Notes under the pieces: model-generated
What the model was told of the DNA's origin: nothing
Databases searched by the model: none
Seen by the model: only the letters and a program-made list of their open reading frames with translations
Shown here: one piece after another, positions 11,756 through 55,950 of the stretch
Position numbering within the stretch: the stretch's first letter is position 1
Layout: each line of letters begins with the position of its first letter
Made by a program: the position numbers and the translations under genes
NCBI RefSeq assembly: GCF_018143015.1
Contig: NC_054746.1
Coordinates: 39,558,687-39,622,686 of the forward strand
Direction of reading: 5' to 3'
DNA from: Lytechinus variegatus
Taxonomy: Eukaryota > Echinodermata > Echinoidea > Temnopleuroida > Toxopneustidae
Length of the DNA: 64,000 nucleotides

Positions 11756-12691
11756 TTACTCATCAAGATCATAAATAACTTGGTTAGAAAATTCAAAAGC
11801 ACACTTTGTTTTGTGGTCTTGCATTTCTAGAGGGAGCTCATCATTTTCATTGCTTTTCTTGTTTTCATTATTATTCATCAAATCACGGTTTTCTGGTGGT
11901 TCCTGAGTATCCCCATTAAGCTCATTGCTCTCTATAATCTCTTCAGACTCTAGACCATTTGTGAGTGGTGAAACATCATCAGGGGAACTTGGTTTAATGT
12001 GGTTCTCATTGGTGTCGGAACTCTCGACGCCATTATTTGCTGCCAAACTTGCCTCACGGCGTGCTTTTTCTTTTCTCCTACGCCTAGATCCCTTGGATTT
12101 CTTCCCCTTTGAGCGGGGAGAGGACGGTATCTCCTGTCCTGACTCTGATTCACTGCTGGACTGTCTCATAAGGACTTGGTTTGGTTGCCAATTCCATTCT
12201 TGATCTTCATGTTCTTCATCTTCCTCAGTGCTAGCTTCTTTGTGGTGCAGGAGTTCAGAATCACTGAAATACTCCCAAGAATTGTCCTTCAGCTTCTCAA
12301 TCATGCGCCTTGGACCAAAGAAGGGAGTCCGCCTTCCTCCTCCTTTCTTCTTGTTTCCACCCTTTTGGGTTCGTTTGGGACCATCAAGGAAGAGTTCAAC
12401 CAAGACTTCCTCACTGAAGCTAACTGACTTGCATGCTCTTCTGCGAGGACTCCTTAAGGCACTCTTAAGACCAGCTGGTATGGAGGAATCAGTTGGTGAT
12501 GACTGAGGATCGCTGCGAGGGGAACTCACATCACTTTCTACCTTCTTCCCATCTGCTGCAGGTCCTAGGTCCAAGGCAGGGATGATAGACTCTTTAGATT
12601 TCATAGATGGCTTCTGACATCCATCAGTGTCACCTTTATGTTTTCCACTGTCTTGTGAACTCTTTGAGCTATCTGCAACCTCACAGGACAC
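11756..12691 (-). CDS. DNAAF2: DNAAF2 / Kintoun exon 3 (C-terminal)
   Basis: Last coding exon, 311 codons plus stop, phase 0 from acceptor gtccag|gtgtcc at 12692/12691. It begins VSCEVADSSK and ends CAFEFSNQVIYDLDE, matching the vertebrate DNAAF2 ending CAFSFQNSLLYDLD. It is mostly low complexity: Ser/Asp/Glu-rich runs, a basic run GSRRRRKEKARRE, and a PP1 docking-type motif KSVSF (residues ~737-741 of the whole protein) in the context RRRACKSVSFSEEV. Drosophila Kintoun is also known as a PP1-interacting protein, so the motif may work. The open frame runs 35 codons upstream of the acceptor; that part is intron. Confidence 0.9.
   Translation of the reverse strand: MSCEVADSSKSSQDSGKHKGDTDGCQKPSMKSKESIIPALDLGPAADGKKVESDVSSPRSDPQSSPTDSSIPAGLKSALRSPRRRACKSVSFSEEVLVELFLDGPKRTQKGGNKKKGGGRRTPFFGPRRMIEKLKDNSWEYFSDSELLHHKEASTEEDEEHEDQEWNWQPNQVLMRQSSSESESGQEIPSSPRSKGKKSKGSRRRRKEKARREASLAANNGVESSDTNENHIKPSSPDDVSPLTNGLESEEIIESNELNGDTQEPPENRDLMNNNENKKSNENDELPLEMQDHKTKCAFEFSNQVIYDLDE
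12416..12430 (-). other. DNAAF2: RVxF-type PP1 docking motif in DNAAF2
   Basis: Codons for K-S-V-S-F, fitting the [KR]-x-V-x-F PP1-binding pattern, in a basic/Ser-rich context. The motif is seen directly; binding is inferred from the Kintoun-PP1 link. Confidence 0.5.
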
Positions 12692-12944
12692 CTGGACAGG
12701 GCATGTAAAAAATGAAAGAGTAATAAAGATAGCTTTTGCTTCAGATGTAGGTATGTAACTCATCATATTTAGGAATTTAAGAAGAAGAATCTTCAAATAA
12801 AAGATATATCAAAAGAACAATTATCTCTGATAGAGATTTTCTCACTTACTCTATAACTTAAGATGATGTACAGTAAAGCAGTCCTTCAAATGCACTATTA
12901 AAATCTGTTAATTGATTAACAACAACAACAACAAATTACTCTCA

Positions 12945-16800: not shown

Positions 16801-18066
16801 CTTCAAACAACATCCAAATCATTTTGAATAATAATTCATTATAAAAATAGATTGAGCAATAGAATGCAAGTGGTGAAGCCTATGAAGGTGGCTGCTCTGC
16901 TGTTAGTATTCCCACCATATCAGACCTACATCATGTATTGCCTATTTTATCAAAGATCTATAGTCTTGCAGCATCAGTTCAGCAAAGACAAAACAAGTAA
17001 AATTAAAAACAGTCTGTTCAACAGACAAATCTCATATCATAAACACTAAAAAAATATTATTGAATTCTCATATTGTTTTCATTCATAATTAAAAAAAAAT
17101 TGTTAAATCTAACATGGAGGAAAATCATATGCATAACACAGGTAATATGCAAATGAGAGCCAGTTGTGTCTTTTGATTTTGGTAGATATGGTAGTATGTC
17201 TTTAATCTTGTAATGATGGCAGTTCAACATGCCCTACATGTACATACATTATGTGGAGCCAAAAGAGCAAAAAAAAAATACCATCATCCATATACATGTA
17301 GAACAAAAATAAAATAATTAAGAAACAAGGACTGTGTGAGTCACTTGCATACCAACTATTTTGAAAATACTTTAACTTACTTAGTACAGCCAATTCATAA
17401 TAATATGAAATTTTCAGAATCATGTTTGTATTTCTGTATTTATTCATGTCAAGTTCTTGTTGAGGTGGACTTGACCACTGAAATTTTCAAAAATGCAAAA
17501 GTTTGATTTTCTTCAATATCTTGAGAATGTTCTCGCAACATTGCCATTCATGTTTGCAACATATTTTGAAAAGAAAATTTGTTTAAAAAATCACTTAAGG
17601 AATAAAGATGCTGTATTAAAAAAGTTCCTACATGTTACAAATGAAAACAATACAATCTCTTTTTTTTCTTTTACTGAAGTAACGATGGATTGAAAAATTT
17701 AATCATAATGATGGTGGTGATGATGAAACGAATTATTATTGTGATGATGATAAAGACGTAGTAATATCAATAATATAAATAATGGTAAAAATAAAAGTAG
17801 GGAGTTACAATAAAACACATGATTTAAAAAAAGGGTATAAAAGTTCATGAACAATAACAGATCAAGAGTTGTTTAATCTGAATTTGTATAATGAATAAGG
17901 AATTAGGGATAAGTTAAACTTTAATTCTTTGACCACTTTTTATTTCTTTACAAATTTTCATTAGCTGTTTTCCCCATTTCCTATAAAACTCTGGGTGAAT
18001 AATTGTTATAAAAGAGATTGGTATTTTCCAATTCTTCCTTTTTCATTGATCACAAACACAACTCAC

Positions 18067-19878
18067 CTCAAGAGTATCTTCAGACAGACCAGCCTTAAGA
18101 GCAGACCACAAGGATCCACATCCTTCTTTCTTCTTGAACACCATTACCACATTGGCCTGAGAGACATCAGGTTTCACCTTCCCATCTAAAGTTTGCCCAT
18201 CTTCACAAACTACAAGGATGGAGAACATTTCTTCAGCTGAATCTGGAGAAATTTTAGTCCTCCTGAACTTTGCTTCTACTATCTTTCCTTCACTCTCCAT
18301 GTTTAGTTTGAAAGACCCTGCATCTACATCTGCTTCCCTAATGATGATGGTGACATTTTCATCTGTTTGGTAGATATCACACTTAGGCAATGTGGTCTTC
18401 ACTTCTAGCTCACTATGAAGCAAATCATCAGCAAGGATTTCATCACTGAGAGGATGACTCTGCTCTGAATCTTCCACAACTTCAGTTACATCTCCTTCTG
18501 GGTAACCTTGAACCTCTTCCAGCGCATCAGTAAATTCTGCTCCGATAGATGGTGTGATCTTGTAATCAGATGTTAAAACATCACTCTTCCCTGGATTTGC
18601 CTCATTGGAATCTTTCACGTTTTCAGGCTTTTCATATTGATCATCATTAAAACCGGGAGAGATTCCATCAGCTTGATTAGTTCTTTGGTTGACTCTCTCA
18701 TCAATACCATTCATCACTATTTCCTGAACAAGAGGATTAGCTTCTTGGGGTACAGGTACACTGGATGGAATTTCTGCTATTACAGGGGGTAAGACTGCCA
18801 GGGTGATGATGAGACAAGACCTGCTTTTGTCAAACTTTGCACTGCCCTTGTCTTCATCTACTGGATAAGGTAGTGGGAGATCAAGTTGGTACATGGCTGG
18901 TTTCTTGCATTCCAGAAAGATGCGTTTCTCAAAGACATCTAACTGGACAGTGGCTGCAGATTTCAATAGAGGTAGCTCTACTTTCAAAATCAGCTCTTGA
19001 GGCCTGGTGCTTGGTGCCGAATCCCTGGCATAGGTGAATTGCTGCATATCAAAGTGACCACGATGAACAATCGAGTGCTTTGGTACTGTGAAGTCATCTT
19101 TCTCTACACGTTTCTCATCATTCGTCTTCCTTTCCGAATCTCTATTCCCTGATATTTTGGAGGCTGTTTTGGCAGGCTGATTGTTGGCCGTTTCCTGTTT
19201 CATTGATTTGTCATATGGGTAAGAAAGTTTGAGGGCATCTAATGAATTCTCACCCTTCGGACCAGACTGATTTGGTGTCCTCAGTACAGTTGCCTGTGGT
19301 CGGCCTTTGAATTTCATTTTGGGCTTTTTCACATTATTGCGATCAAAGGTAATTTTAAATTCCCTCTCTATCCCATCCATTGCTGTATTATCCATCAACG
19401 TCCGAAATCTGCTGTCTTTATTTATCATTTCAAAGCAGTCTGGGTGGAACAGACAATCAAACACCATACACTTTTTCCCTGCATGATCATAATCATCACG
19501 ACCTGGAGCTAAACTGTAAGGAAGCGCCCACTCAACTCCCATTTTCCTTGCATTCCCACTGCCCTGATAAGACTTGGATGCTTGAGGCTTACCAATGTTA
19601 TCATTCTTACAGATATTGATGAATGCCTTCTTTTCCCCATTAATGCTTGTCTTTAACACGTATCCAGGGTTGGGGTGCAAAAACTTAACATCCATGCCTC
19701 GCGACCTTTCCAACTCCGCTAATTCCTCTTCATATTTTTTCCTGTTTTCAGGATCAGAAATTTCTTGAGCATACTCGACGAATAATTTCCGAAACTCTTC
19801 ATTTTTCAAAGCTTTTTCGATCCGCTGCACTTCGTCTGCAGTGACATCAAGACCTTCGAATGTGTCTTTAGAGGCCAT
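18067..19878 (-). CDS. DNAAF2: DNAAF2 / Kintoun exon 1 (PIH and CS-like domains)
   Basis: First coding exon, 604 codons from ATG at 19878. DNAAF2 acts in the cytoplasm with HSP70/HSP90 to pre-assemble axonemal dynein arms. The N-terminus aligns with vertebrate DNAAF2 through YAQEISDPENRKKYEEE and ELERSRGMDVKFLHPNPGYV. PIH1 domain ~30-200 (LPYSLAPGRDDY, VFDCLFHPD). CS/p23-like domain ~292-365 (RPQELILKVELPLL, LPLPYPVDEDKGSAKF). A second beta-rich stretch lies at ~510-600. Between them is an acidic linker. Donor gag|gtgagt (18067/18066) is phase 0; reading on would add only VSCVCDQ. The whole protein is ~960 aa, longer than human (837) mainly through linkers. Confidence 0.95.
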
Positions 19879-20150
19879 TTCCTTTCTTTATTTTCCCAAA
19901 CGCTGAGAGTACATGTAATAAATCGGAGACTGCCTGCTGCATATGCGCCTAGCATGCATGCAGTACACGACAATCCGTAGTATTTGTGTATGCATATGCG
20001 CAGCGTGTGTAGTTTTGTTTACTATATTAATCATGCCACAACAAATCGTTGAGGGCAGCAAAGTTATATGGTTTCATCACCATTTTGGGGTCTTCATTGT
20101 TTTCGAGAATCTTCTTCTGAGCACTGTTTGGCATGCAATGAGGCAGGGAT
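19879..20150 (-). promoter_or_regulatory. Probable DNAAF2 promoter region
   Basis: Sequence just upstream of the DNAAF2 start. A short word gcatatgcgc occurs twice (near 19939 and 19991). No TATA box and no RFX X-box pair was seen. Placement is by position only. Confidence 0.35.
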
Positions 20151-39575: not shown

Positions 39576-40789
39576 GCAACCCATAGGCGGATCCAGGGGG
39601 GGGCCGAGGGGCCCGGCCCCCCCCCCCCCCCCTATTGGCGGAGCAAAAAAAAGAAAAAAGGGGGAAAGAGAGAAAAAAAGAAAAAGAAGGGAAAAGAGAG
39701 GAAAAAAGAAGGGGAAACATAAGAGGACGAAGACGATTGAATGAAATAAGATGAGGGGGGGACTTGGAAAATAATCTTTCGTTTCCCTATAATAAAATTT
39801 TCGCTCGCGCTTCGCGCTCGCATTGCGTTTAAGGTGATTTACATTATCTTGCTCAATATGGAGCTTAAAATATCAAATTTTGAACTTGAAATTTTGTTTG
39901 ATTTACAAATTGATACAAATATATTTCAGCTCGGAAAACGAACTTTCGCAATTTTGTTTGATTTAAAAATTGATTTTTAAAAAGTGCTCTCTAAAAATTT
40001 GTATTATATGATCTGAATATAAACAATTTCTGCTCGCGCTGCGCGCTCGCAAAATTTGATTTGTCAAGTACCTATTATTTTCGTGTATTCCATCAAGTTT
40101 TCAAAATGTCCCTTTTCCTGTCTGATTGTCAAAACGTACCAGCTAGTGCTACACGCTCGCATTTTGATTGGCGAGTTATGTATGTCTTAATATTGATTAT
40201 ACAACAAACCTCTTAAAATCCCGTTTCCATGACATTTTACCAAAAATTTTGGCTTTCGATTTGCACTCGCATTAATGGTTAAAATATATTAACTGATGCA
40301 TCCTATTTATTATTACGAAAGTGCTTGGAATGTCCAATTTTCAGGCCATAATGTCATCAGATTTATGAATAAGATATTAATTTGATAATTCATTTGTCCC
40401 TTTTGTTTCATCTCCCGCTTAGCAAGAGGAATAGGGAGATAGTCATTTTCATATGCATGTCCTAAGGATGTCCATGGATCCTATGTTAGAATTCAAAGTA
40501 ATGATAATGAAAAATATCTGTTCTTTATTAAGTGCGATTCATATATCCACCTCATTTTTTTCCTACAGTGCTTGAAATACAGAGCTGATATTGACTCTTT
40601 TTTTCAGATCAGAGTATCATGATAAGAGTGTATTTAGAATGCCTAGATTCTAGGTCTAAATATGAAACACGCACGCGCATGTTTGTTCAGATACTCAACT
40701 TGTTCTTCATTAAAATCATTATCCAGTTTCTATGGAAGCTTAAAAGTGCCACCGAGATGTTGAGATAATTATCTCGGGAAGTCGACATC

Positions 40790-41710
40790 TTGATAGCAAA
40801 AGATAAGATGACGAGATCCTGGATCTCATCATGTCGACATCTTTGAGAAGAGATGATGAGATGACAAGATCCTGGATCTCATCATGTCAACATCTTTTAG
40901 AAGAGATGATGAGATGACAAGATCCCGGATCTCATCATGTCAACATCTTTTAGAAGAGATGTTGAGATGACAAGATCCCGGATCTCATCATGTTGACATC
41001 TTTTAGAAGAGATGATGAGATGACAAGATCCTGGATCTCATCATGTTGACATCTTTTGGAAGAGATGATGAGATGACAAGATCCCGGATCTCATCATGTT
41101 GACATCTTGTAGAAGAGATGATGAGATGACAAGATCCTGGATCTCATCATGTTGACATCTTTTAGAAGAGATGATGAGATGACAAGATCCTGGATCTCAT
41201 CATGTTGACATCTTTTAGAAGAGATGATGAGATGACAAGATCCTGGATCTCATCATGTCAACATCTTTAGAAGAGATGTTGAGATGACAAGATCCCGGAT
41301 CTCATCATGTTGACATCTTGTAGAAGAGATGATGAGATGACAAGGGCCTGGATCTCATCATGTTGACATCTTTTAGAAGAGATGATGAGATGACAAGATC
41401 CCAGATCTCATCATGTTGACATCTTTTAGAAGAGATGATGAGATGATAAGATCCCGGATCTCATCATGTTGACATCTTGTAGAAGAGATGATGAGATGAC
41501 AAGATCCTGGATCTCATCATGTTGACATCTTGTAGAAGAGATGATGAGATGACAAGATCCCGGATCTCATCATGTTGACATCTTGTAGAAGAGATGATGA
41601 GATGACAAGATCCCGGATCTCGTCATGACGACATCTTTTAGAAGAGATGATGAGATGACAAGATCCCGGATCTCGTCATGTCGACATCTTTTAGATGAGA
41701 TGATCTGACA
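40790..41710. repeat. 53-bp satellite array, left arm
   Basis: About 17 head-to-tail units: agaagagatgatgagatgac, aagatcctggatctcatcat, gttgacatctttt. Each unit is itself a palindrome around gatcc(t/c)ggatc. Variation among units is limited to a few sites (ctgg/ccgg, tttt/ttgt, gttg/gtcg/gtca). Confidence 0.92.
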
Positions 41711-42544
41711 AGATGCTTGCACCTGCACGCATTAACACCGACAGGAAGTTGGTTGATATTCGATTTTCGATATTCAAACTGTGAAGTTGGGTCGATATTC
41801 AAACGCGTGTGAATTTGGTTAATTTTCGATATTCAAAATTAGGGGCTTTCAAAGCTAAATAGGGGAGTTTAACAGGTGCAGCACATCTCGGGCAACCATA
41901 AATACACTGGCTTGCCCTAGTACGAGGACATTTAGGGGACAAGGTCAGTGAAGAAAAGGGCATGAGATTTTTAATTTTTTTTTTTCGAGGGACCCCTAGG
42001 GATATCCCGACGGCTTAGCCAGGGTAACCACGTATCTTGACTTGTAGAACTCGACTCGGGCAACCAGATAAACACTAGCTTGACCCGGCGCATGCACATT
42101 TAGGGGGCTCAAATTAACAAAATTAAAGGGAATAAAGGGCTATTTAGAGCATCTTTTTTAATTTAAAAAAGTATATTTTTCAAGGGGCCCCCAGAGATAT
42201 CCAACGGCCTAGCCGGGGCAAACAGGCATCCTAACTTGTTGAACGTGACCCGTGCAACCAGATAAACACTAGCTTGATCAGGTGCATGCGCATTTTGAGG
42301 GCTAAAATTAACTAAAATAAAGGAATATTGGGCTATATCAAGCATTTTTTATATTAATAAAGTGATTTTTTTAAGTGGCCCCCCAAGATATCCAAACGGC
42401 CTATAGCCGGGACAACCAGGTATCCTAACTTGTAGATCTTGACCCGGGCAACCAGATTTGCACTAGCTTCATCTGACGCATGCAAATTTTGGGGGCTCAA
42501 ATTAACAAAATTAAAGGAATATAGGGCTATTTCAAGCATGGGGA

Positions 42545-42965
42545 ACCACGGTCCTGACTTTTTCCCCATCCCTTGTACCGCCAATGGGTACAGTAAAAAA
42601 ACAAGGATAGATAGAAAAAAAGAGAAAGAAGCGAAAGGGGGAAATAGGAAAGAAAGGGGGGGAAGGGAGAGAAAGGAAAGGGAGAACGGATGGGTTGATC
42701 GTATCATTGTATGAACAGGATATTTTATAATCATGCCCCGAGCATAAGGGCGAAGCTCAATGCGTGATAAGGACAAAAAAGAGAGGACACACCATGGCGC
42801 ACGCAGCAAAAATTTGCTTCATAATAAATCTCAGGCGAGCGAAGTGAGCGAGACAAAAAAAATCACCTTTAACTTTGAGATTGATTTTGACATGGTATGC
42901 AGAAAATGACATCATATTTTTTTTTGAGGGGGGAGTGCTATGCGGATCGGGTCCGGGGCAATGAT
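42545..42965 (-). repeat. MITE remnant in foldback spacer
   Basis: Reverse-oriented match to 52398-52717 and 55580-55950: gcataagggcgaagctcaat, tttgagattgattttgacat and ggtatgcagaaaatgacatc. A purine-rich run lies at 42600-42690. Confidence 0.6.
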
Positions 42966-43479
42966 GGCACCAAGTTTTTTTAACCTAGGAGGAGGAAAAA
43001 CAAACATTTTGGGGCCGGGGGTGGTGACACACAATTTTTTAAAAATCGAGTGAGGAGCTCGAAAATGTAGTCCCTATACTGAATTGAAAAGGGACCTGTT
43101 AAGGATTAGCTGTTTGCATTGATCGGGTCATAAAGATGATATCTCACCAAATAAATAATGCAAGCGCGAAGCGCGAGCTGAAAATTTTTGATATCCGGGA
43201 TGATACCTGGACGTTCTAAGCACTTTTTGTAATACTAATCATGAACTGAATGGCTATCTAATTAGCTGAAAATATTTCATTTATGAAAATTATGAATACG
43301 CAGGATATGTATCTCGCTAAAAAGAATAATGAAAACTCTAATAACATATGATTTTTAAGCCCCATGTGAACAGATAATTTACTTATCTCAATCATTAATA
43401 ACTGCGAGCGTGTAGCGCGAGCAACATTTTGAATGGAGGAAAAAAAATTTAAAATTTAAAGAACAAAAAACATTTTTGG

Positions 43480-43790
43480 AGAATTATGACGTTTACAACA
43501 CACTTTTTTCTTCAAATTTCGGGGGGGGGGGGAACTCACTGGGGCCTCCCCATTCGGTGGCGCCACTGGTCTGGGGCGGAGCCCCCGGAACCTCGTGATA
43601 TTTTTAAATATTGCAGATGGCCAATTTTTTTTATCATATCGCGGGTACATACACCACAATTATATTAAGTTCAACGCAGTTGCGGATAATAAACGAAATA
43701 TGCTAAGGCACGACAACATAGCAAATGTGGAATAATTTGAAAAAGTCGCAAGCGAGCGAAGCGAGCTAGAAAATTTTGGCCTTTTAAAAT
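43480..43790 (+). repeat. Repeat fragment shared with 55240-55520
   Basis: Contains ggggcggagcccccggaacc, tcgtgatatttttaaatatt, aggcacgacaacat and gcgagcgaagcgagc. A minus-strand copy with the same words lies at 55240-55520. No boundaries determined. Confidence 0.6.
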
Positions 43791-44954
43791 GATTTTGAAA
43801 TTAAATTCTAATTATGTGATAGTCGCTTTGGAAATTTAGTCGATCAATCAATCAAGAGCTTTGAAATTAGTCACATGATATTGTCTAGAAGAGACATTTT
43901 CGTTCATGAAAGTTTTATTGGAGGGGTATTACTCCTTGCTGGTTAATTGAATTGAAAGATACATATGCAAAAGAAAATGTCTCATGACAATCATTCAAAG
44001 ATTAAAGGAGCTTTATACTCATATTTTATATTTTGACAATACGTTTTCTATCGATATACGTCGACATCTTTTCTCCAAGATATGACGATCTACAACAAAA
44101 GGTTAAATATATTCATTCGACCCAACCAATTCTCATTTTTTTTAATTTTGTAAACTGATTACAATGAAGAGTATGTGTAATGATTAGACTGATTCTAAAA
44201 ACAAAGAATGGGCAACCACTAAACATATTTTGTGCAAATAAAAGAAAAATACATGTGTCACTCAGCTTTCGGAATATTTTATTGGCGGAGGAATGAGGAC
44301 TGAGTATAATAGATTAAGATCTGCTCATGAGATGCTTTACCGAGTTGCCCCCTAAATGTGCATGCACCGGGTCAAGCTAGTCAAGCTAGTGTTTATCTGG
44401 TTGCCCGAGTCGAATTCTACAAGTTAGGATACGTGGCTACCATGGCTAGGCCGTCGGGATATCCCTGGGGCCGGCCTCTTGAAAAAATACTTTTTTAGTT
44501 AAAAAATGCTCTAAATAGCCCTTTATTCCCTTTAATTTTGTTAATTTGAGCCCCCTAAATGTGCATGCACCGGGTCAAGCTAGTGTTTATCTGGTTGCCC
44601 GAGTCGAGTTCTACAAGTTCAGATACGTGGTTACTCTGGCTAAGCCGTCGGGATATCTCTAGGGGTCCCTCGAAAAAAAAATCAAAAATTAAAAATTTCA
44701 TGCACTTTTATTCCCTGACCTTGTCCCCTAAATGTCCTCGTAATAGGGCAAGCCAGTGTATTTATGGTTGCCCGAGATGTGCTGCACCTGTTAAACCCCC
44801 TATTTAGCTTTGAAAGCCCCTAATTTTGAATATCGAAAATTAACCAAATTCACAAGCGTTTGAATATCGACCCAACTTCACAGTTTGAATATCGAAAATC
44901 GAATATCAACCAAATTCCTGTCGGTGTTAATGCGTGCAGGTGCAAGCATCTTGT

Positions 44955-45875
44955 CAGATTATCTCATCTAAAAGATGTCGACATGACGAGATCCGGGATC
45001 TTGTCATCTCATCATCTCTTCTAAAAGATGTCGTCATGACGAGATCCGGGATCTTGTCATCTCATCATCTCTTCTAAAAGATGTCAACATGATGAGATCC
45101 AGGATCTTGTCATCTCATCATCTCTTCTACAAGATGTCAACATGATGAGATCCGGGATCTTGTCATCTCATCATCTCTTCTAAAAGATGTCAACATGATG
45201 AGATCCAGGATCTTGTCATCTCATCATCTCTTCTACAAGATGTCAACATGATGAGATCCGGGATCTTGTCATCTCATCATCTCTTCTACAAGATGTCAAC
45301 ATGATGAGATCCAGGATCTTGTCATCTCATCATCTCTTCTACAAGATGTCAACATGATGAGATCCGGGATCTTGTCATCTCATCATCTCTTCCAAAAGAT
45401 GTCAACATGATGAGATCCAGGATCTTGTCATCTCATCATCTCTTCTAAAAGATGTCGACATGATGAGATCCGGGATCTTGTCATCTCAACATCTCTTCTA
45501 AAAGATGTTGACATGATGAGATCCGGGATCTTGTCATCTCATCATCTCTTCTACAAGATGTCAACATGATGAGATCCGGGATCTTGTCATCTCATCATCT
45601 CTTCTAAAAGATGTCAACATGATGAGATCCGGGATCTTGTCATCTCATCATCTCTTCTAAAAGATGTCAACATGATGAGATCCGGGATCTTGTCATCTCA
45701 ACATCTCTTCTAAAAGATGTTGACATGATGAGATCCGGGATCTTGTCATCTCATCATCTCTTCTACAAGATGTCAACATGATGAGATCCGGGATCTTGTC
45801 ATCTCATCATCTCTTCTAAAAGATGTCGACATGATGAGATCCAGGATCTCGTCATCTTATCTTTTGCTATCAAGA
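44955..45875. repeat. 53-bp satellite array, right arm
   Basis: Reverse-complement partner of 40790-41710, again about 17 units of catctcatcatctcttctaa, aagatgtcaacatgatgaga, tccgggatcttgt. The equal copy number on both arms suggests the arms are kept alike by conversion or replicate together. Confidence 0.92.
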
Positions 45876-45954
45876 TGTCGACTTCCCGAGATAATTATCT
45901 CAACATCTCGGTGGCACTTTTAAGCTTCCATAAGTTTCAGATCACAATGTCAAA

Positions 45955-48915: not shown

Positions 48916-51876
48916 ATGACTGAGTCTTTAAACATGTCTTTATCTGACGAAGAACTGAAATCCAATGAATGCCACTATTATTTACCCGACGAGCTTAACT
49001 CCTGTCATAATTGTAACGACGAGTCTTATTTCAGCTTACTACACTTAAATGCCCGGAGTTTAAGTCGCAACTTTGACAATGTATCTAATCTACTTAAATC
49101 CCTAAACAATTCATTTTCCATCATTGGAGTAAGTGAATCATGGTTAAACCCTAATTCTCCTACTTTATTTAACATGGAAGGTTATCAGATGTTACGTTAT
49201 GACAGATTACATGGACGTGGAGGAGGTGTAGTATTATATGTAAAAGAAAATATTTCCTTTCAATTAATGACCCCTCTGTCCGAATCACCAGACTTTGAGA
49301 TGCTTTTTGTGGAAATTTCCAATGTTAAATGTAAAAATGTAATTGTAGGCGTAGCATATCGCCCACCCGGTACGAATATTGATTCATTTACTCATCAATT
49401 AGAATCATGTATCAGTAATTTTTCGAAAGGCGGCAAACATATATATCTAATGGGCGACTTTAATATAAACTTACTTTCAAAAAATGACAAGTCTTATAAT
49501 ACTTTCATATCGTTATTGAATAGTTACGCCCTCTATCCATTAATAGACAAACCTACCAGAGTATCCCCGACATCCGCAACGCTTTTAGATAACATTTTCA
49601 CAAATATTGTAGAAGATTTTCAAAGTGGTATTTTATACTATGATGTATCAGATCACCTTCCTATTTTTACAATATCAAGAAAAACACAAGGGAAACGATA
49701 TGAATCTAATGAATACTTTAATAGAAATTATTCAGTCGAAAATATAAACTCCCTTAAAATCGATCTTATAAAAGAAACCTGGTCAGATGTATTTCAAGTA
49801 ACACATGGTGTGAACATAGCATATGAACTTTTTCTTCAAAAATTTAAGGAATATTATGATAAAAATATACCTTGTTTGCTCAAAAAGAAAAGAAAAAATA
49901 ATATTCATAATCCTTGGATTACCAATGCAATAATGAATTCTATTCGAAAAAAGGATCGATTATATAAGTTGTATATACGCAATCCTAGCAATGCCGTCCA
50001 ACATAATAAATTTAAGGCTTATCGTAACAAACTAACAGCCATTATTAGAGCATCACGCAAAATGTATTATACAAATAAACTTAAAAGAGTGTCGGGAAAT
50101 ATGTCTGCTACCTGGTCCATCTTAAACAATATCTTAGGCAGGGGTAAAAGAACAGAATTCACAAAAGAAATGTACTCTGAAAAAGAAAAGACTAGTGACC
50201 CACAGAAAATTGTAAACATCTTAAATAAATATTTTGTAAACATAGGTCCAACTTTATCAAAAACTTTTACAACCAATGAGCACTCTTTTAAAGATTTTTT
50301 ACCTGAACGAGCTGAAAACTCGATATTTTTCAAACCCGTAAGACCACACGAAGTTATATCCATAGTAAAATCCCTTAAAAATACCAAAACTTGTGGGCAT
50401 GACGATATCAACTCATTTATCTTAAAACAAATAATTTTCTTTATAGCAGATCCACTTTGTCATATTTTCAATTTATCATTGTCTCTTGGGTGCTATCCGA
50501 ATTCTTTCAAATTAGCACGCGTCGTACCAATATTTAAAAAGGGAAATCGGATCCAATGTGAAAATTACCGACCCATATCTATTTTACCCTCTTTATCTAA
50601 AATCTTAGAAAGAATAATCCATAACCAGGTATATAATTTTTTAGACAAAAACAATTTACTTTGCACCGCCCAATATGGTTTTAGGAGACATCATTCAACG
50701 GAATTAGCAGTTTTGGATTTATATGATAGAATAACTAACTCCCTTGCAAAAAAACAATATATAACCGGATTATTTTTGGACCTTTCAAAAGCGTTCGACA
50801 CGCTCGATCACTCAATTTTAATACATAAACTTGAATGTTATGGCATAAGGGGTACGCCTCTGGCATGGTTTAGAGATTATTTAAAAAATAGAATTCAATA
50901 CACTGAGGTCGATGTTCATAAATCACAAATTTTAGAGCTCCAGTGTGGCGTCCCACAAGGATCCATACTTGGGCCGCTTCTCTTTATAATATATATGAAC
51001 GACATTGTAAAGTCTTCTGAAAAGCTTAGTTATGTGTTATTTGCAGATGATACGACACTGCTATATTCTCATTATGATTTTAACAAAATGATAAACACCA
51101 TCAATGTAGAATTACGTAAATTAACTAACTGGCTACAATGTAATAAGTTATCTCTCAACCTCAGTAAAACAAATTATGTTATATTTCACAACACAAACAA
51201 AAACATTATGGAAGACCAGAGCCAAATCTTAATAGACAATACCATAATTGAAAGGAAAACTAATGTTAAATTTCTTGGTGTTATTCTTGATCAACATTTA
51301 AACTGGAATTTGCATTTTCAGCATCTAAGAACTCATATTTCTAGAATTATTGGTATTATGTTCAAACTAAAAGATACGTTAATGCCAAAGTCTATTATAC
51401 TATTGTACAATTCTTTCATATTATCTTATTTATCTTATGCTAATATTGCTTGGGGTTGTGGAACCAAAAGAAACGTTAATTCCTTACTGTTATTGCAGAA
51501 AAGAGCCATAAGAATTTGCACAAGTTCTCCTTACTTAGCCCATACTGATCCAATTTTCAAAAAACTGAACATATTAAAAATATCTGATATCAATATCTTA
51601 CAAACTGCAAACTTTATGTTCAATTATGCTAATCACTTGGTTCCAAGCAATTTTAATTCAATGTTTATACGTAATACCCAGGTTCATGAACACAATACCA
51701 GAAGTTCCAACAATTTTCATCTTAGTAATCCCAAAACAGTACTTGCTTATAAATCCATCAGACATAGAGGACCCGATGTTTGGCACTCACTGCCTCGTAA
51801 AATAAAAGAATGTTCTTCGCTTTCTTCTTTCAAACGTAAGCTAAAAAAACATATCATATCATCATATGACTCATGA
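48916..51876 (+). CDS. LINE ORF2: endonuclease / reverse transcriptase, 986 aa, intact
   Basis: Apurinic-type endonuclease at ~41-250 (LLHLNARSLS, GVSESWL, DRLHGRGGGVV, MGDFNINLL, SDHLPIF). Reverse transcriptase at ~520-800: ENYRPISILPSLSKILERI, LDLSKAFDTLDH, GVPQGSILGPLLF, FADDTTLLYS (catalytic ADD at ~709-711). The C-terminus HEHNTRSSNNFHL and GPDVWHSLPRKIK is typical of these proteins. No frame break over 2.96 kb, and all expected catalytic motifs are present. The start ATG at 48916 lies in a Thr/Ser/acidic N-terminal stretch; a start a few codons later is possible. Target-primed reverse transcription enzyme; jockey/CR1/L2 group, clade not decided. Confidence 0.93.
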   Translation: MTESLNMSLSDEELKSNECHYYLPDELNSCHNCNDESYFSLLHLNARSLSRNFDNVSNLLKSLNNSFSIIGVSESWLNPNSPTLFNMEGYQMLRYDRLHGRGGGVVLYVKENISFQLMTPLSESPDFEMLFVEISNVKCKNVIVGVAYRPPGTNIDSFTHQLESCISNFSKGGKHIYLMGDFNINLLSKNDKSYNTFISLLNSYALYPLIDKPTRVSPTSATLLDNIFTNIVEDFQSGILYYDVSDHLPIFTISRKTQGKRYESNEYFNRNYSVENINSLKIDLIKETWSDVFQVTHGVNIAYELFLQKFKEYYDKNIPCLLKKKRKNNIHNPWITNAIMNSIRKKDRLYKLYIRNPSNAVQHNKFKAYRNKLTAIIRASRKMYYTNKLKRVSGNMSATWSILNNILGRGKRTEFTKEMYSEKEKTSDPQKIVNILNKYFVNIGPTLSKTFTTNEHSFKDFLPERAENSIFFKPVRPHEVISIVKSLKNTKTCGHDDINSFILKQIIFFIADPLCHIFNLSLSLGCYPNSFKLARVVPIFKKGNRIQCENYRPISILPSLSKILERIIHNQVYNFLDKNNLLCTAQYGFRRHHSTELAVLDLYDRITNSLAKKQYITGLFLDLSKAFDTLDHSILIHKLECYGIRGTPLAWFRDYLKNRIQYTEVDVHKSQILELQCGVPQGSILGPLLFIIYMNDIVKSSEKLSYVLFADDTTLLYSHYDFNKMINTINVELRKLTNWLQCNKLSLNLSKTNYVIFHNTNKNIMEDQSQILIDNTIIERKTNVKFLGVILDQHLNWNLHFQHLRTHISRIIGIMFKLKDTLMPKSIILLYNSFILSYLSYANIAWGCGTKRNVNSLLLLQKRAIRICTSSPYLAHTDPIFKKLNILKISDINILQTANFMFNYANHLVPSNFNSMFIRNTQVHEHNTRSSNNFHLSNPKTVLAYKSIRHRGPDVWHSLPRKIKECSSLSSFKRKLKKHIISSYDS

Positions 51877-53100: not shown

Positions 53101-53157
53101 AAGTGGGGATTCTAGCATGTGGGGAATCCCAGCTGGGATTCCCGCGTCTATCATGTC

Positions 53158-53427
53158 TATGGCAAACCGTTTGTGTAAAAACTAGATAAACTCTGTTTTT
53201 CTCAGATAAACCGAGATTATCTGAAAAACCGTGCTTATCAACTGATAAACACAGCTTTTCACAGATAAACTAAGTTTATCAACTCATAAACTTAGTTTTT
53301 CAAGAAGAACTTAGTTTTTCTTGAGAAAAACTGTGTTTATCTGAGATAAACATAGTTTTTCTGAAAAAAGAACAGTTATTTGAGAAAAACAGAGTTTATC
53401 TAGTTTTTACACAAACGGCTTGCCATA
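53158..53427. mobile_element. Palindromic MITE of AAACT/TTTATC words
   Basis: The left arm tatggcaaaccgtttgtgta, aaaactagataaactctgtt is mirrored by the right arm aacagagtttatctagtttt, tacacaaacggcttgccata. The arms continue inward as runs of aaactaagtttatc / gataaacttagttttt, so almost the whole 270 bp is self-complementary. Confidence 0.85.
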
Positions 53428-53919
53428 CGCGTCATGTGGAAATACCCACTGATTTATAGAGATCAGTGGAAATACCCGATGTCAAAGCAAGGTCAGCACA
53501 TGAATTGCACATTGCTTTTTTGGTGGATCCACTGTATGAAAAAATAATATTGACTAAGATCTAGTAGGTAAGAGAAATCTATCAGAAATTTATTTCAGAA
53601 CCGGGAAGAAATTTTAATGCTGATAGATGCTATAAATATGGTTATTAAAAGAATTTAAGCTCTTTATATCATGCATAATATCTGTAGCTATCGTATTCGT
53701 ATCCAAAGGTTTTGTTTGTTTTATTTCCGAAATTATAAAAACACAATTTGACATAAACAACAACCAATAGTGTATATGATATGATTGGATGGCCCGTCAG
53801 AGCTGATATAATATACAGCTGTGTCCTTTCATGGGATGGGGTCTAACATAATGATAATAATATATATAAACAATAATATAACATAGACTATTTTATATAG
53901 CATACATAAAAAAGTAGCA

Positions 53920-54900: not shown

Positions 54901-55239
54901 ATTTACTCACTCTCAGTCATATAAACGGCTATCAAATTGCAAGAAGAACATGTGAGGGAGTACAAAATATTCTGAAATACTAATACATAAGCATTGACAC
55001 TGGCATGATAAGCAAGAGAGGGATATAAAATCAAAAGATATGGCACGGGCAAGATTGGCGGGAAATGGGAGAAAGAGGCAAAAAGAGACAGAAAATGAAG
55101 GTAGATCTTAAAATCAGAATAATGAAGAAAAGGGAAAGAGAACATGCACGACCGAGCTTCCGAGAATTGAAAAATATATAGAACGGGGAAGAAAGGTGGA
55201 TGGCGTCTAAACTTACTAAAGCTACTAGAATTTAATTTC

Positions 55240-55520
55240 AAAATAATTTTGAAAGGCCAAAATTTTCTGGCTCGGTTCGCTCGCAGGCGACTTTACAAAT
55301 GTTTCCACAGGTTTTGTCGTGCTGCCTCAAACTATTTCGTTCATTATTAGCAACTGCGTTGAAGTTAACATTATGTTGTCCTCGCAATTTGATTAAAAAA
55401 AGTGGCCATCTGCGATTTTTAAAAATATCACGAGGTTCCGGGGGCTCCACCCTAGACCAGTGGCAGCACCAAGGGGGAGGCACGGGGGGCATTTCCTTCC
55501 TGTGAGTTGCCCCCCCCCCC
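55240..55520 (-). repeat. Repeat fragment, second copy of the 43.5-kb unit
   Basis: Reverse-oriented match to 43480-43790 (gcgatttttaaaaatatcac, gaggttccgggggctccacc, cgtgctgcct). It merges into the MITE-like repeat at 55580. Confidence 0.55.
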
Positions 55521-55579
55521 ATTTTTTGAAAAATAAAAAAAGGTGTATAGTAAATGTTGTCATATAAGCATCCTACTAA

Positions 55580-55950
55580 AGCTGCAAAGTGCTCCAAAAC
55601 AGATTGCCCCGGACCCGATTTGCATAGCATGCCCAAAAAGTTCTACAACCGAGAACAAAAAAATATAAGAAGAAAGGAAAAGAAGGGAAGATGTCAGATA
55701 TGATATAATTTTCTGAATGCCATATCAAAATCAATCTCAAAGTTAGATTCGCATGGAAAGGTGATTTTTTTTCTCGCTCGCTTCGCTCGCTTTAAGCAAA
55801 CTTTTGCTCCGCGCGCCATGCAGTGCCCCCTCTTTTTTGAGTTATCGCGCATTGGGCTTCGCCCTAATAATGCTCGGGGTACAATAAAAAAAATCTTGTC
55901 CATACCATGATATGACCGGGAAATTTGGCTCTTGAGTCTTGACAACCCCG
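55580..55950 (+). repeat. hAT-like MITE family member
   Basis: Interior like 52398-52717: aaaagttctacaaccgagaa, ccatatcaaaatcaatctca, aagttagattcgcatggaaa, gcattgggcttcgccctaat. The right side has ccccgccaccgacattc. The left end is unclear because of the adjoining repeat. Confidence 0.65.

Follow-up and report, generated by a model that had tools for sequence, protein, structure and literature searches.

A non-autonomous foldback transposon family of the sea urchin Lytechinus variegatus, with repeat-bearing arms, 6-bp target duplications and IS3EU-like ends

TU elements of the sea urchin Strongylocentrotus are foldback transposons with 8-bp target duplications and a short outer repeat of ~15 bp, and Galileo, a member of the P superfamily in Drosophila whose transposase sequences are known, makes 7-bp duplications. 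Galileo has long, internally repetitive inverted arms like those of Foldback, the first of its transposase sites lying ~70 bp inside the end and others within the tandem repeats of those arms (PMC3688188). IS3EU families have TA..TA termini and target duplications of usually 6 bp, and GingerRoot duplications are likewise 6 bp (PMC10045372); rust-fungus IS3EU elements are described with TAYGG..CCRTA ends, 6-bp duplications and terminal inverted repeats exceeding 30 bp (PMC12730594). Here we describe a 5,202-bp foldback element at positions 40731-45932 of a 64,000-nucleotide stretch of the Lytechinus variegatus genome (assembly GCF_018143015.1, contig NC_054746.1, positions 39,558,687 to 39,622,686 of the forward strand; hereafter the window, whose numbering is used throughout). 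The element is one of many copies of a mobile family without genes of its own; we read it as a long member of a foldback DNA-transposon family that is non-autonomous and most likely moved by a transposase of IS3EU/GingerRoot type.

The two inverted arms align with 94.5% identity across 1,591 columns of a gapped alignment (Table 1), in agreement with the ~1.6-kb inverted arms proposed for this DNA by an initial sequence-only reading, and contain inverted repeats (40731-41268/45395-45932 and 41266-41865/44797-45396) that are each 97% complementary. From the outside inwards, each arm consists of a 71-bp end, identical on the two sides in the same alignment, 17 units of 53 bp, a non-repeated stretch of ~275 bp and a second array of ~194-bp repeats, present in ~3 copies on the left and ~2 on the right, which that reading had overlooked. 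Its estimate of ~17 units per arm is matched by Tandem Repeats Finder (period 53, 17.1 copies on the left and 17.0 on the right) and by unit extraction (17 + 17), and the 6-bp duplication that it reported, AGTTTC, lies flush on both sides. The middle domain is partly akin, in reversed orientation, to a repeat at 55226-55915 and has no recognisable gene or transposase among the open frames inspected; no tRNA and no RNA family at its gathering threshold was matched anywhere in the window. A window-wide scan that required TAYGG..CCRTA tips, an exact 6-bp duplication and resemblance between the two ends returned this element as its sole match, and as a control 6 of 200 random 5-base tips yielded at least one such match.

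Copies of the arm are present throughout the genome, a search with the left arm giving at least 126 matches (40 of 1,502 candidates scored). The sample of long copies, drawn from 20 fetched stretches and the window, comprises 21 complete long elements; they occupy 20 loci, two copies being nested at one of them. Stretch L018, where the left end was not reached, was left out. The duplication is exactly 6 bp, no longer, and flush in 20 of these 21 copies, the other (L021) matching at 5 of 6 bases, and the left duplication sequences of all 21 are different. Both tips read TATGG..CCATA in 20 of the 21, the right tip of L019 being GCATA, with one base changed; the tips shared by the copies are TATGGAAGCTTAAAAG, and 26 of 40 ends of long copies share an identical outermost 71 bp. 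The middle domain is also held in common: the longest match of other long copies to positions 42700-44300 extends over 780 to 1,611 bp at 94-99% identity, with a mean of 98.0% (19 rows, one copy entered twice and L025 left out). At locus L020 a copy has inserted into the tip of another with the duplication TAAAAG, and because the inner copy interrupts a family tip, the uninterrupted original site is known. Two more nest-like arrangements are found among the places listed. At C17:17824224-17838088, arm pieces in both orientations are clustered, apparently representing several mutually nested copies.

From the places listed, the common form of the family is short (~0.4-1.3 kb), consisting of the terminus and two inverted arrays of 53-bp units. 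When up to 3 mismatches are allowed, the genome contains 844 forward and 838 reverse occurrences of the 28-bp terminus (1,682 in all), the reversed-pattern control giving 0 + 0. The 100 sites listed, all on C1 and all exact, so that partners with a mismatch would escape the listing, yield 35 pairs with spacings of 449 to 3,435 bp (median 981), 30 of them at 0.4-1.3 kb, and leave 30 sites unpaired. Six short elements of 449-1,193 bp were fetched; all have the terminus and inverted 53-bp arrays, duplications of exactly 6 bp (6/6), TATGG..CCATA tips (6/6) and arms that are 88-93% alike, and one of them folds essentially as a single hairpin (z = -31.5). The 6-bp duplication, which had been raised as a feature in need of explanation, is thus a constant of the family and no oddity of a single copy, being common to 20 of 21 long and all six short copies. 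As to how the two forms are related, the long form has an innermost unit that resembles, by eye, the axis unit of the short form, and over the outer 124 bp the mean distance is 2.8% among 40 long ends, 4.8% among 12 short ends and 4.5% between long and short. This fits an origin of the long form within the short one, in which the 5-kb form would be a short element that gained a core, made up of the inner arm repeats and the non-coding middle; six short copies being few, the reverse order may also hold.

The arms of the long form show a separation into a left and a right lineage. Mean inner-arm distances are 2.1% among left arms and 1.8% among right arms, and left and right differ by 4.0% within one copy as against 4.1% across copies; 38 of 39 arms have their nearest inner arm on the same side (L025 is without the segment in its left arm), and positions 41705-42140 of the window separate the two lineages. 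In a tree each side forms one group (93/96, the bootstrap not being settled), with one change of side compared with 13.3 in shuffles. As left and right arms are separate lineages, arm symmetry has been inherited and not renewed in each copy, and the inverted duplication is older than the dispersal of the long form, which has kept it ever since. For this form, the pattern answers whether arms are inherited or renewed. The rival view, that arms are kept alike by arm-to-arm copying within each element (hairpin-primed repair or gene conversion), would explain the 17 + 17 units and agrees with the identity of the outer 71 bp in both arms, with the inner arms of L009, which differ by just 1.8%, and with the one arm in 39 that is nearest to the other side, but is contradicted for the inner arms by their same-side grouping and tree, and we consider it highly improbable. 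The arrays also speak against it: contiguous arrays contain 11 to 28 units, and 6 of 20 copies have the same count on the left and right (permutation p 0.13), so that the emphasis previously placed on equal arrays finds little basis, and array order groups by side (nearest array on the same side in 34 of 40, on the other side in 4 and in the same copy in 2). In the window, a private unit variant occurs as unit 5 of the left array and as unit 9 of the right array, which argues that 17 = 17 is no unit-by-unit copy, and an in-register test on the inner units gives p 0.036, too weak to rely on. Within the outer 71 bp and the arrays, exchange may take place.

The 53-bp unit had been taken to be self-palindromic, with hairpins forming at the scales of both unit and arm. 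The arm scale holds, but at the unit scale folding is at best slightly above chance, with z -1.44 for the DNA of the consensus unit and +0.15, -0.28, -0.78 and -1.86 for four native array stretches against dinucleotide shuffles. A constructed unit with its neighbours reached z -2.61 and was discarded, its first base not being that of the array. Where a unit has CA at positions 39-40, the following unit tends to have T at position 7 (74/118 versus 7/475 otherwise); this was not used as hairpin covariation, because the units are copies of each other and one amplified block explains the association equally well. The first full unit starts ~70 bp from the tip, the distance of the first transposase site in Galileo, and by analogy with the further sites in the arm repeats of that element the 53-bp units are probably iterated transposase-binding sites. 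A degenerate unit can be aligned within the tip itself, with a score reached by 19 of 1,000 shuffles for the consensus and by 0 of 1,000 when variant states were chosen afterwards. In a decayed relative (L053), the tip is intact over 18 bp, the subsequent units are much diverged and the right tip was not found within 4.5 kb, which hints at an old array plan. A tip variant (TATGGAAGCTTAAAAGTGCCCCCAGAAGAC) occurs seven times within 1.2 kb, always on the same strand, at C7:29743469-29744685; this array is apparently derived from an element end, and the family may accordingly seed satellite-like arrays.

Three traits published for IS3EU recur here, namely the 6-bp duplication, TATGG..CCATA ends of the TAYGG..CCRTA type and inverted repeats longer than 30 bp (1,572 and 1,586 bp) (PMC10045372, PMC12730594), so that by its ends and duplication length, and not by a proven transposase, the family looks IS3EU-like, an assignment that the initial sequence-only reading did not consider. 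It differs in that the copies scanned encode no recognisable transposase, and in its ~1.6-kb arms with 53-bp arrays, which the IS3EU passages of these two sources do not mention. Several results weigh against the assignment. A recognisable transposase was not found in the 20 long copies scanned, whose longest open frame, with frames judged by eye, is 220 aa. No autonomous element with the same ends, the look-up for which had been suggested on the basis of the sequence, was found in a partial genome search, and since no such partner was found, membership in IS3EU rests on ends and duplication length. The 16-bp tip occurs with different neighbouring sequence at 25 sites, the two inspected being decayed relatives, and in the loci inspected none of the host integrase-like genes (PF24764, IS481 profile, P0121) could be tied to the family ends. 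The best characterised of them, L055, joins an integrase to an OTU domain that resembles the one in Ginger1. In addition, a 5-base tip together with a duplication length is a weaker assignment than an enzyme, the published TAYGG passage concerns rust fungi (PMC12730594), and the alignment of the unit within the tip is weaker under stricter gap costs (21 versus a shuffle mean of 13.6 and maximum of 24 in 500 shuffles).

The candidate sources of an enzyme are as follows. PF24764 matches 35 places in the genome; the eight loci inspected among them have no TAYGG pair, and the 20-bp terminus is never closer there than 6 mismatches (five matches at three loci). With the IS481 profile NF033577, 65 of 1,386 candidates were scored and none lies above the cut-off, 44 of the 65 falling within frames of more than 1,000 aa interpreted as retroelement polyproteins, and ten inspected loci show no terminus. 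An integrase-like locus on C15 has no terminus pair and inverted matches of at most 14 bp within 0.9 kb on either side. Viral contigs searched with the 53-bp unit and the terminus gave 0 matches. The 220-aa frame, found in L011, was rejected as a transposase, since by eye it resembles a reverse transcriptase of an inserted retroelement. Open genes combining integrase and OTU domains are present at L055 (C14:2193300-2194900) and at C14:3574344-3576269, with a broken relative at C1:4287468-4289110; genes of this type would belong to a Ginger1- or KRBA2-like transposon. Ginger1, which has an OTU domain, makes 4-bp duplications, the duplication here being 6 bp. Dada does not fit the family either, since it is without terminal inverted repeats and inserts in small RNA genes (PMC3706591), as opposed to the long arms and the 20 different duplications at 20 sites seen here.

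One rival reading is a subfamily of TU elements, moved by whatever moves TU: like TU, the family lives in a sea urchin and has long inverted arms with a repeated outer domain around a variable middle. However, TU has an 8-bp duplication and a ~15-bp outer repeat, compared with the 53-bp unit and 6-bp duplication here, and since the latter is a family constant (20/21 and 6/6) it argues against TU; this reading is quite unlikely, and the suspicion that the family is distinct from TU gains support. A stripped Polinton/Maverick, or a hAT lineage, would have to be reconciled with the TATGG tip, which fits neither the AG..CT ends of Polintons nor the YARNG ends of hAT elements, and with a longest open frame of 220 aa in the 20 long copies, in which no polymerase, integrase or capsid genes were seen by eye; although Polintons also have long inverted repeats, we hold this very unlikely. 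Both share the duplication length, 6 bp being given for Polintons (PMC10045372) and for some hAT families (hAT6; PMC12730594).

Membership in Mutator, to which most foldback elements have been assigned, with exceptions (PMC4079207), is suggested by that precedent and most closely by Tetris of Drosophila virilis, also non-autonomous, with arms of up to 1,735 bp containing internal tandem repeats and a variable non-coding middle; Tetris, however, is placed in Mutator with 8-10-bp duplications against exactly 6 bp here, and three structurally complete copies are reported (PMC4079207), and a Mutator-type origin is most unlikely. Finally, long near-identical inverted arms are difficult to assemble, and the sequence-only reading had itself considered an assembly artefact; an artefact or an immobile local inverted duplication nevertheless deserves next to no credence in view of the different flanks of the 21 complete long copies, 20 of which have flush 6-bp duplications, of the 1,682 termini, and of the self-insertion at L020 with two further nest-like arrangements. 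An IS3EU connection of dispersed repeats has been described for TCAST10 of Tribolium, a satellite-like repeat whose second half matches IS3EU-1_TC at 86% but which is not presented, in the relevant part of that account, as a foldback with 6-bp duplications and lacks 53-bp arrays (PMC5844308).

Under the preferred assignment to IS3EU/GingerRoot, the mobilising enzyme would be an integrase-like DDD/E transposase that recognises the TAYGG..CCRTA tips together with the adjoining iterated 53-bp units, then brings the two arms together and cuts the element out, so that movement would be of the cut-and-paste kind, with insertion through a 6-bp staggered cut. A broader and more tentative reading, to which we give somewhat less than even chances, is that of a transposon reduced to a transposase-binding platform: the short form would be a terminus with inverted arrays, its 53-bp unit derived from the tip, outnumbering the source of the enzyme; the array rather than the tip would give recognition; and the foldback plan would have arisen independently in the integrase-type IS3EU, converging on Galileo and Foldback. 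Neither an IS3EU foldback nor a Lytechinus family of such kind was described in the literature searched (top-ranked titles and starts of abstracts), and a deposited consensus may exist. Foldback elements being credited mostly to Mutator, with P-type exceptions, an IS3EU-type family would add an unrelated lineage. Long, internally repetitive arms would then have evolved independently in unrelated transposase lineages, which in turn suggests selection for iterated binding sites.

The insertion sites show a base preference. Of the 20 sites with exact duplications, 16 have A at -4, 13 have C at -2 and 18 have G or C at position 6 of the duplication; the mirrored bases are weaker, with T at +4 in 10 and G at +2 in 8. 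The score of the four-base motif has a mean of 2.35, compared with a mean of 0.94 and a maximum of 1.45 at shifted positions, a control that is optimistic because the motif was chosen on the same 20 sites.

Table 1. Parts of the foldback element and its flanking duplications, in window coordinates
Feature	Position	Strand	Basis
Left target-site duplication, AGTTTC	40725..40730	.	flush direct repeat
Left arm, 1,572 bp	40731..42302	+	aligned with right arm
Left outer end, 71 bp, starts TATGGAAGCTTAAAAGTGCC, contains degenerate 53-bp unit	40731..40801	+	same in both arms
Left array, 17 x 53-bp units	40802..41704	+	Tandem Repeats Finder, unit extraction
Left inner non-repeated arm segment	41705..41979	+	arm alignment
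Left inner ~194-bp array, 2.9 copies	41980..42539	+	Tandem Repeats Finder
Middle domain, no recognised coding capacity	42540..44346	.	open-frame inspection
Right arm, 1,586 bp	44347..45932	-	arm alignment
Right inner ~194-bp repeats, ~2 copies, limits approximate	44347..44683	-	arm alignment
Right inner non-repeated arm segment, limits approximate	44684..44960	-	arm alignment
Right array, 17 x 53-bp units	44961..45861	-	Tandem Repeats Finder, unit extraction
Right outer end, 71 bp, terminates CCATA	45862..45932	-	arm alignment
Right target-site duplication, AGTTTC	45933..45938	.	flush direct repeat

Elsewhere in the window, a 270-bp palindromic element at 53158-53427 (within 53143-53433) has ends TATGGCAAAC../..CCATA that match at 19 of 20 bases and contains units of ~20 bp; CGCGTC stands right after the right end and recurs 9 bp beyond the left one. 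This may be a further element that combines TAYGG ends with a 6-bp duplication. A 986-aa open frame at 48916-51876, with endonuclease and reverse transcriptase domains, is that of a long non-LTR retrotransposon, and 11756-12808 on the minus strand holds a 350-aa frame with no Pfam match. Positions 18043-19887 correspond to an exon of the gene for the dynein assembly factor kintoun, 96% identical to kintoun of Lytechinus pictus.

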